This document shows, piece after piece, positions 21,937 to 24,578 of a stretch of 64,000 nt of DNA. The translations under genes were made by a program, and so were the position numbers. The notes beneath the pieces are model-generated. The model saw only the letters and a program-made list of their open reading frames with translations, did not search any database and had not been told where the DNA came from. This stretch comes from Chlorobium sp. (GTDB lineage Bacteria > Bacteroidota > Chlorobiia > Chlorobiales > Chlorobiaceae), in contig SZXX01000048.1 of assembly GCA_005843825.1 (NCBI GenBank), positions 1-64,000 of the forward strand, written 5' to 3'. How positions within the stretch are numbered: the first letter of the stretch is position 1; every line of letters starts with the position of its first letter.

Positions 21937-22272
21937 TCATTCAATAATAGCTGCACGAACATTTTCCCTCGTAATCATAACCCGTTCTGACGAATCCCTC
22001 ACCATCCGCTCAAGCATCGGCAGAAAGCTGTCAATATTCTCCGTAGTGTCCACAAGCTCAACAATCATGGGAAGGTTAAGTCCGAACTCCACGATTTTAG
22101 CTGTATTGATATGCAGGTCATGACCGTAGGAAAGCACCCCCTTCATTACTGTTGCACCCGCCATCCCAAGCTGCCGGGCTTCACGGACTATCTCCTCATA
22201 GAGGGGGCGATGCCCGAAGCGTACATGTTCACCGACAAAAATCCGCAGCGATTCCAAATTTTTCAGTTCCAT
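21937..22272 (-). CDS. DUF190 / PII-like protein
   Basis: Start ATG 22272 (MELKNLESLRIFVGEHVRFGHRPLYEEIVREARQLGMAGATVMKGVLSYG), preceded by AAAGGGGGG; COG1993-like. Confidence 0.88.
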   Translation of the reverse strand: MELKNLESLRIFVGEHVRFGHRPLYEEIVREARQLGMAGATVMKGVLSYGHDLHINTAKIVEFGLNLPMIVELVDTTENIDSFLPMLERMVRDSSERVMITRENVRAAIIE

Positions 22273-22496
22273 AATCCCCCCTTTCATTGAGTTCCTTATG
22301 AATAAAGGCTTTCCATCCATCTTGTTACAATACCGTTAAAAAAACTAGAAAATTGATCTTTATCAAGGGTAAATCCAAACTGAAATATACACCACCTACC
22401 CGCTAAACTCGAACAGTAAAAGAATCCTTGTTGGTTCATCCTATTCTGTATGATCTGTCCAGTATTGACCTGTTGGCGGGTGAAGGTGGAACACAA

Positions 22497-22519
22497 AACC
22501 CCGGTGGAGTGCCGGGGTT
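22497..22519 (-). terminator. Terminator of the TAC-like operon
   Basis: AACCCCGG-TGGAGTG-CCGGGGTT perfect 8-bp stem about 20 bp past the secB-like stop; no strong U run. Confidence 0.6.
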
Positions 22520-22539
22520 ATAAAGTGATAATCAGTGTG

Positions 22540-22980
22540 CTAAGATTTCTTATCTCCAATATGGTCATCCACCTTTGGGACAAAATCCTTTGGATCAATA
22601 ATCGGTAAAGGAATATTTTCTAAGAATGTTCCGGCACCTTTGGTTAAAATAGCCCCTCTGGTTGTTGAAATCGCCAAGGAAACCGGAGTAACAAGAAGAG
22701 AATTTGGATAGGTAATAGCCCCGTCTTCTGACACATGAGGCTCTGTATTATAAACAGAAAACAATGTTGCAGTCTGTGCTTTTGCGACTTCCTCCTCATT
22801 ACTTTGTCTGATAACTCTAACTAATACATACACAACGATTCGAGATTTATCTGTCTCAATATTAGCTGCGATTTCAAAATTAAAGACTTCATCCGCAGCA
22901 ATATTTTCTTGCTGCACAAAATTAAATGAAACAAACTTAAATGCCTCAAACTTTATCCCTATTGTATTTTTATTGCTCAT
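22540..22980 (-). CDS. SecB-like protein (putative TAC chaperone)
   Basis: MSNKNTIGIKFEAFKFVSFNFVQQENIAADEVFNFEIAANI... (146 aa). NSLLVTPVSLAISTTRGAILTKGAGTFLENIPLPIIDPKDFVP aligns by eye to the SecB C-terminal pattern ([34 protein letters not shown]). Confidence 0.72.
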   Translation of the reverse strand: MSNKNTIGIKFEAFKFVSFNFVQQENIAADEVFNFEIAANIETDKSRIVVYVLVRVIRQSNEEEVAKAQTATLFSVYNTEPHVSEDGAITYPNSLLVTPVSLAISTTRGAILTKGAGTFLENIPLPIIDPKDFVPKVDDHIGDKKS

Positions 22981-22986
22981 GATCAA

Positions 22987-23388
22987 TTAAGCTGCTTCAT
23001 CCCACTCGTTTGATCCTTTTCCAGAACTAACAGTATGAGTCTGAGTGGGTGTCTCGGAAATCTTTTCAGCTATTTTTTCCCAGGAATTCTCAAAATATGG
23101 TACACCTATATATTTATATGCTTTGGGTTTCAAAGGGATATCAATAACGTCTTTACCTAAAGCAACTTCGAGCTCCACAATAGTTTTAAGTGTTGGGTTT
23201 GCCCATCCTGATAAAACTCTACTGATATAGGATTCTTGTTTTCCCAACGTTTCGGCAAGCTCTCTCTGAGTCATCCCAGTCTCTTCCAGTAACTCATTTA
23301 TTTTTATAGCAAACTCTCCCTGACGTTTAACAAACTGTTTAGTATAAGGGGATATCTTTGCTAAAGTTTGTTTCAGCAGTGATGTCAT
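22987..23388 (-). CDS. XRE/HTH antitoxin-like protein with C-terminal extension
   Basis: Start ATG 23388 (MTSLLKQTLAKISPYTKQ...). HTH_3 motif GMTQRELAETLGKQESYISRVLSGWANPTLKTIVELEVALG, then a tail containing YKYIGVPYFENSW. Confidence 0.85.
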   Translation of the reverse strand: MTSLLKQTLAKISPYTKQFVKRQGEFAIKINELLEETGMTQRELAETLGKQESYISRVLSGWANPTLKTIVELEVALGKDVIDIPLKPKAYKYIGVPYFENSWEKIAEKISETPTQTHTVSSGKGSNEWDEAA

Positions 23389-23395
23389 GATCGTA

Positions 23396-23875
23396 TTAGT
23401 TTGATGTAAAGTTAAGATTTCCGCTAATAATACCAGTCCTCGAATCAATAACGATCTCACCGGATTTTTGACGAGCCTCAATTAATCCATCAATTATTTG
23501 AAGCTTATCAGCAATATCTTTAAGGGTTGAGTCCTCCTGATATGTGCGTGTTGTCTTGATACCACCAAAACCGGCAATCAACAAAACACTTGACCAGCGC
23601 AAACAAAACAGTCTAAGGGGCCCATTATCATAATGAAACGCACTCAATGCATCTTTGATGGATCCTTCAGGTTTAAAAAACCACTCCTTGAAACCCTGAT
23701 GCTCAACCATATCTCCGAGTCGTGAAACCAAGGGTTCGAAGTCATGAGATTCTTTGATTTCCTTTTTTGAAAGAAACTTATCCAACTCAGTATTCTCGGC
23801 ACCCTCAAAGCGAACCGTGTAGAGCGAACCTCCGAGGCCATGAGCGTAATACTCTATCTCAAAACTAAGTTTCAC
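23396..23875 (-). CDS. Putative toxin of the TAC-like module (unassigned; distant HigB/RelE-like C-terminal half suspected)
   Basis: 159 aa, GTG start at 23875. LRLFCLRWSSVLLIAGFGGIKTTRTYQEDSTLKDIADKLQIIDGLIEAR resembles the strand-strand-helix end of HigB/Gp49 toxins. Stop 7 nt before the antitoxin start. Confidence 0.5.
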   Translation of the reverse strand: MKLSFEIEYYAHGLGGSLYTVRFEGAENTELDKFLSKKEIKESHDFEPLVSRLGDMVEHQGFKEWFFKPEGSIKDALSAFHYDNGPLRLFCLRWSSVLLIAGFGGIKTTRTYQEDSTLKDIADKLQIIDGLIEARQKSGEIVIDSRTGIISGNLNFTSN

Positions 23876-24115
23876 TTATAAGTTAAGCTGCGAGATTAAA
23901 AAAACAAAGAATTTCTAATAATTATGAAAAGAATATAAAAACAATGTGATTGACAAGTAACTTCACAAGTAAAAAACATGAAAAGTTTTATTTCACCAGC
24001 CTCAGTTTCGGGGATACCGCAATACTCTCCCGCAAAGCTCATCAACTCCTCATTGACCTTGGCAAACACGCTGCCCGAATCACCCAAGCTTTGCTGCCGA
24101 TATGGACAACAAAAA

Positions 24116-24135
24116 AGCAGGCTGTTAGACCTGCT
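24116..24135 (-). terminator. Terminator downstream of crcB
   Basis: On the minus strand AGCAGG-TCTAACAG-CCTGCT followed by TTTTTG. Confidence 0.65.
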
Positions 24136-24194
24136 CTGGTATCATGGCTATAAAAGCCCTTTTTGAGCTATCAACCCCGCGCAATTTTCCCCCC

Positions 24195-24578
24195 TTATGT
24201 CCAGAGTTTTGCAATGATAGTTCCTGAATAGAGAGCAATCAGCCCCCCCGCGATACTGCCGGCAAGATATAAGCTGGTATAGAAGATCTGGCCATCTTTG
24301 ATGAGTGCCGTAGACTCAAACATATAAGCTGAAAACGTGGTAAATCCCCCGCAAATACCAGTCACAAGAAAAAGTCTTGCTTCAGGAGAGACAAGGGTAG
24401 TCGATACGGCCAGCTCGCTCAGAAGACCAATCAGAAAACTGCCGAAAATATTTACTGCAAATGTTGCAAAAGGAAAGCCCGGAACTAGCGGAGAGAAGAG
24501 AAGAGTAACCAGATAGCGCGCAATGGAGCCAAGAAACCCCCCTGTACCTACCAGCAGCAGCGCTCCCGAATGTTTCAT
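24195..24578 (-). CDS. crcB: Fluoride ion channel CrcB/Fluc
   Basis: GGFLGSIARYLVTLLF, FPFATFAVNIFGSFLIGLLSELA, TGICGGFTTFSAYMFESTALI. Confidence 0.95.
   Translation of the reverse strand: MKHSGALLLVGTGGFLGSIARYLVTLLFSPLVPGFPFATFAVNIFGSFLIGLLSELAVSTTLVSPEARLFLVTGICGGFTTFSAYMFESTALIKDGQIFYTSLYLAGSIAGGLIALYSGTIIAKLWT

Follow-up and report, generated by a model that had tools for sequence, protein, structure and literature searches.

A probable toxin-antitoxin-chaperone operon with a divergent toxin, recently inserted between crcB and a DUF190 gene in a green sulfur bacterium

Three short genes packed on the minus strand of a Chlorobium sp. contig (SZXX01000048.1, assembly GCA_005843825.1) raised the question of whether they form a toxin-antitoxin-chaperone (TAC) module and, if so, what that module would do. 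We analyzed the 64,000-nucleotide stretch that contains them, referred to here as the window, and designated the genes T, A, and C in their order of transcription. Our answer is that the three very probably constitute a TAC module. The features of the locus are as follows.

24195-24578, minus: crcB (fluoride channel family), flanking gene, assigned by family match
24188-24196, minus: AAGGGGGGA, one of two 9-bp repeats bounding the insertion, on the crcB side
22284-24187: inserted segment of 1.9 kb that separates crcB from the DUF190 gene
23871-23886, minus: 16-bp near-palindrome TTAACTTATAAGTGAA, proposed operator, recognized by its conservation over the GTG start of T
23875-23396, minus: T, putative toxin, open reading frame of 159 aa with a GTG start
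23388-22987, minus: A, putative antitoxin, open reading frame of 133 aa with an ATG start, 7 nt past the T stop
residues ~31-81 of A, minus: XRE/HTH_3 domain
22990-23145, minus: C-terminal tail of A, 52 aa, candidate chaperone-addiction (ChAD) region, containing ENSWEK and a Tyr
22980-22540, minus: C, SecB-like chaperone, open reading frame of 146 aa with an ATG start, 6 nt past the A stop
22519-22497, minus: intrinsic-terminator-like hairpin 3' of C
22275-22283, minus: AAGGGGGGA, the other 9-bp repeat, on the DUF190 side of the insertion
21937-22272, minus: DUF190 gene, flanking gene, assigned by family match; adjoins crcB in relatives

The T, A, and C genes are adjacent and point in one direction. 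An earlier note on this DNA had described a packed minus-strand trio with an XRE/HTH protein in the middle, a GC-rich hairpin, and a block richer in AT than its neighbors. All of these observations held: the open reading frame coordinates and the 7-nt gap agree, a gap of 6 nt separates A from C, HTH_3 matched A (E 9.5e-11), an 8-pair stem with 6 G-C pairs lies at the hairpin position, and GC content is 0.35-0.41 over 22.5-24.2 kb versus 0.44-0.55 in most adjacent bins. The likening of the order and spacing to TAC systems, with the M. tuberculosis HigBA1-Rv1957 module as example, was also upheld, as the trio is conserved in relatives and both the predicted folds and the linkage between the A tail and C agree with it. 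The proposed operator, the insertion, and the PDC-M64 match are additions to that note. Because the same T-A-C order and spacing recur in relatives, the arrangement is more than chance. All three proteins match PADLOC models of the system PDC-M64 at E values of 5.8e-12 or lower: T as PDC-M64B (2.9e-31), A as PDC-M64C (2.3e-21), and C as PDC-M64C (5.8e-12). An Rfam search of the operon region retrieved no convincing RNA.

The operon is a recent insertion between crcB and the DUF190 gene. The inserted segment is missing from 29 of 29 relatives, and in all 29 the spacing between the two flanking genes is -1 to 20 nt. The AAGGGGGGA pair at the edges may be a target duplication, or it may reflect chance on a G-run. 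The ends of the insert (window positions 22293-22447 and 24094-24172) are similar to the termini of a non-coding repeat of 1.2-1.4 kb that is dispersed in related genomes, some of which hold several copies (copies at L147:2340-3800 and L150:1130-2520, and in L153, L154, L155, L146, and L148). This repeat, which has no long open reading frame and no convincing Rfam match, is possibly a non-autonomous mobile element.

The AlphaFold model of C (pLDDT 84.3) consists of four strands and a long helix. When this model was searched with Foldseek against 350,542 PDB chains, the best match was 5mtw, the structure of the M. tuberculosis TAC chaperone Rv1957 with a ChAD peptide (E 6.3e-5, probability 1.00), and SecB chains came next. 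A structure check had been set beforehand for the earlier claim of a SecB fold at 22540-22980, and this ranking bears the claim out; the C-terminal pattern that had been quoted for it proved to be the conserved core of the C family, in which S101, R108, and P126 are invariant. The Pfam SecB model (PF02556) gives no match to the C protein of the window and matches 4 of 19 C homologs (best 1.6e-9). Weak matches to the C family were also seen in genus genomes that lack T (G010:C11, G028:C11, G185:C86, G201:C90, and others), and these may represent TAC modules built around other toxins.

Tail lengths of A, counted from where the HTH core stops, were compared at 77 non-redundant loci, 28 with C and 49 without it. 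The extension tracks C and is absent from most chaperone-less relatives: tails span 31-87 aa (median 53) at loci with C, while the median is 5 aa at loci without it, where 45 of 49 tails are shorter than 30 aa (Mann-Whitney p 4.7e-12, a statistic that ignores the relatedness of the loci). Long tails (35-116 aa) occur at four C-less loci, namely L013, L014, L024 (41 aa), and L054 (35 aa); those of L013 and L014 (L014:1971-2564) are long, low-complexity replacements rich in Pro, Ser, and Thr. Because the loci are related, we counted gains and losses of C on the toxin tree, which requires at least 10 changes in C presence. Tail and C agree in 4-5 of 6 independent pairs and are opposite in none, a result that is suggestive on its own (p ~0.06).

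Residue content follows the same division. Trp is present in the A tail at 18 of 28 loci with C and at 0 of 49 without it, and Trp or Tyr at 28 of 28 versus 13 of 49, although these counts are not independent of length, since a longer tail can accommodate more of these residues. In the ChAD of M. tuberculosis HigA1, W108 and Y114 are key for the chaperone (PMC5105189). A tblastn search for remnants of C in the C-less loci found none, and the sole remnant, at L009/L041, came from DNA comparison. There the last residues of A, ILAKGAGS, come from C, and the DNA matches the corresponding stretch of the C gene at 84% identity over 43 nt. Because the tail has been replaced by a fragment of C with matching DNA, tail and chaperone appear to have been lost together by one deletion. 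These patterns suggest that A would depend on the chaperone through its tail, as in other TAC modules.

T belongs to no family in Pfam or NCBIfam, has no sequence match in the PDB, and does not match PF05973 (Gp49) or a related family model. Weak matches to Glyco_hydro_85, INTS15, and AIPR_N were judged to be chance. The AlphaFold model of T (pLDDT 91.9) ranks S. pneumoniae HigB, ribosome-bound M. tuberculosis HigB1 (7nbu), and ribosome-bound RelE first in Foldseek. The top ten matches are all HigB/RelE-type toxins or one small unnamed protein, at marginal scores (E 0.04-0.4; TM 0.32-0.47); the matches behind the HigB/RelE reading score E 0.04-0.2 and TM 0.37-0.47 by query. A comparison of the T profile with 14 Gp49/HigB proteins gave P 0.0022, versus 0.05-0.4 for unrelated control profiles, at an hhalign probability of 13%. 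Its register places LRLFCLR on the core strand and the invariant K107 on the conserved Lys that follows the last core strand; by this register K107 of T would correspond to K95 of HigB1, a residue required for toxicity (PMC9098466). R88 and Q113 are likewise invariant in the T family alignment. From its modeled fold we take T to be a putative, divergent HigB/RelE-like toxin.

The near-palindrome TTAACTTATAAGTGAA reaches from 11 nt upstream of the T start as far as codon 2. Nearly every green sulfur member has it unchanged, though their toxins are as low as 39-46% identical, and it is also found in some members outside this group (L028, L054, and L094). In several Bacteroidota members the DNA ~50-70 nt upstream of T holds TTCACTTATAAGTGAA, which is a perfect palindrome, or a sequence close to it, and a Bacteroides plasmid has TTAACTTATAAGTTAA immediately upstream of T. 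In 61 genus genomes we found 26 exact copies of TTAACTTATAAGTGAA, all at toxin starts (20 before a recognized T, 2 at contig ends that cut T, and 4 before an apparent decayed T), and a reversed control gave 0. The possibility that the palindrome is kept merely as coding sequence for the first residues of T was rejected, because at L226 a gap of 41 nt separates it from the T start, and in several Bacteroidota members it lies farther upstream still. We infer from this conservation that the palindrome is an operator for A, a function that would also account for the conserved GTG start; a role as core promoter (TATAAG) is conceivable as well. At L213, L215, L216, and L220 (from position 1501 on), the palindrome is followed by apparent decayed toxins whose first codons are conserved, and these look like loci where the operator has outlived the toxin gene.

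Of 297 genomes in a sample of the phylum, 29 contained T, which was also found at 73 loci of a genome collection that partly overlaps this sample and in one plasmid. The first, wide alignment of T was too variable for scanning the collection, and a closer alignment was used instead. T was absent from the phage records and viral contigs searched. Many loci have T-A-C and many have T-A only; in L019, L031, and L093 the toxin frame is split in two while the antitoxin frame is intact. Defence-type neighbors at other loci include type I restriction-modification, Cas1/reverse transcriptase, a type II methylase, and PD-T4-6. The Bacteroides plasmid (L231:1160-5337, NZ_CP103284.1), which encodes a phage-type antirepressor, has T and A followed by a third gene whose similarity to C is weak, and there the PDC-M64 module adjoins a PD-Lambda-1 homolog. 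At the locus studied here, we noticed no defence genes adjoining the operon.

By its anatomy the operon is a real TAC-type module, while toxicity, RNase activity, chaperone dependence, repression, and a phage trigger are inferred. During normal growth, the SecB-like C would bind the extended C-terminal tail of A, and the bound A would fold, escape proteolysis, and inhibit T. A would also occupy the palindrome that overlies the T start and thereby keep the operon repressed. Activation would come when C is diverted from A, most likely to a freshly synthesized phage protein. The precedents are CmdTAC (PMC11618068), which has a SecB-like sensor and has been studied in more depth than any other TAC in phage defence, and HigBAC of E. 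coli C496, a phage-triggered system with a RelE-superfamily toxin and the SecB-like HigC (PMC11980606). With C titrated, A would be lost and T released. As its HigB/RelE fold relatives do, free T would most likely cut mRNA on the ribosome, so that growth and phage production would stop. Because of the CmdTAC and HigBAC precedents, abortive phage defence would be the likeliest role, and plain addiction is possible.

The same TAC biochemistry could belong to a selfish addiction module that is retained because its loss harms the cell and not for defence, a reading we regard as tentative at best. The recent insertion that splits crcB from the DUF190 gene, the resemblance of the insert edges to a dispersed repeat, the patchy presence of the family, and the four decayed toxin copies would all suit such an element, whereas the PADLOC defence call and the defence-type neighbors at other loci, PD-Lambda-1 among them, argue for a role in defence. 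It is also conceivable, but improbable, that T works as in CmdTAC, needing A to fold and modifying RNA or protein (for example by ADP-ribosylation) with no cutting of mRNA. The prominence of CmdTAC among phage-defence TACs and the lack of a family for T leave room for this. However, the model of T is HigB/RelE-like, no ADP-ribosyltransferase is named among its best 50 fold matches, and PADLOC assigns the operon to PDC-M64, with PD-T4-9 models absent from its matches.

Two further readings, both of which we consider very improbable, would dissolve the module itself. T and A might be an ordinary two-gene toxin-antitoxin pair, with C a stray SecB export chaperone that is cotranscribed by chance. 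C is missing at the 49 related loci, TAC chaperones can stand in for SecB in E. coli (PMC5105189), and Pfam detects no housekeeping SecB in the genus, although the same model also misses C. Against a stray chaperone, C is adjacent at 28 loci and varies in step with the tail of A. Alternatively, T might not be a toxin but bind DNA or protein as a partner of the HTH regulator, as the lack of a family would allow; its HigB/RelE-like fold matches, the invariant R88, K107, and Q113, and a toxin-first order as in higBA speak for a toxin. A TAC module with a putative HigB/RelE-like toxin is the reading we prefer.

TAC modules are already known, and the novelty here lies in the proposed operator, in a divergent toxin family, and in the members of that family that lack a chaperone. 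The analysis extends TAC modules to green sulfur bacteria. Chaperone addiction has been demonstrated by laboratory tail grafting. The present family offers natural relatives that share the same toxin and DNA-binding domain and occur with and without the chaperone, so the chaperone as the source of phage sensing by toxin-antitoxin systems becomes directly testable. On a broader reading, which we consider evenly poised between right and wrong, one toxin-antitoxin family has repeatedly gained and lost chaperone addiction, with the tail and the SecB-like gene exchanged together while the toxin and operator stay constant, converting plain toxin-antitoxin systems into phage-sensing TACs and back, and T is a new, unnamed branch of RelE/HigB.

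Among named systems, PDC-M64 is a PADLOC label for a candidate defence system only, and no mechanism for it was found in the searchable literature; the scheme above suggests one. Like CmdTAC (PD-T4-9, E. coli), which acts in phage defence, the operon has three genes with a SecB-like third, but CmdT is an mRNA ADP-ribosyltransferase, while T is HigB/RelE-like by predicted fold. The E. coli C496 system HigBAC shares the SecB-like third component, and its RelE-type toxin is resembled, at marginal scores, by the predicted fold of T, although the HigBAC toxin falls in the recognized HigB/Gp49 family and T has no PF05973 match. The operon differs from the M. tuberculosis HigB1-HigA1-Rv1957 (SecB-TA) module in sharing very little sequence with it (13-15% identity for C), in its 159-aa toxin without a Pfam family, and in a proposed operator that overlaps the toxin start codon. 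Nevertheless, it resembles that module in its order of toxin, antitoxin, and SecB-like chaperone, in an antitoxin C-terminal extension that holds a Trp and a Tyr, in Rv1957 as the best structural match of C, and, at marginal E-values, in the likeness of the T fold to HigB1.
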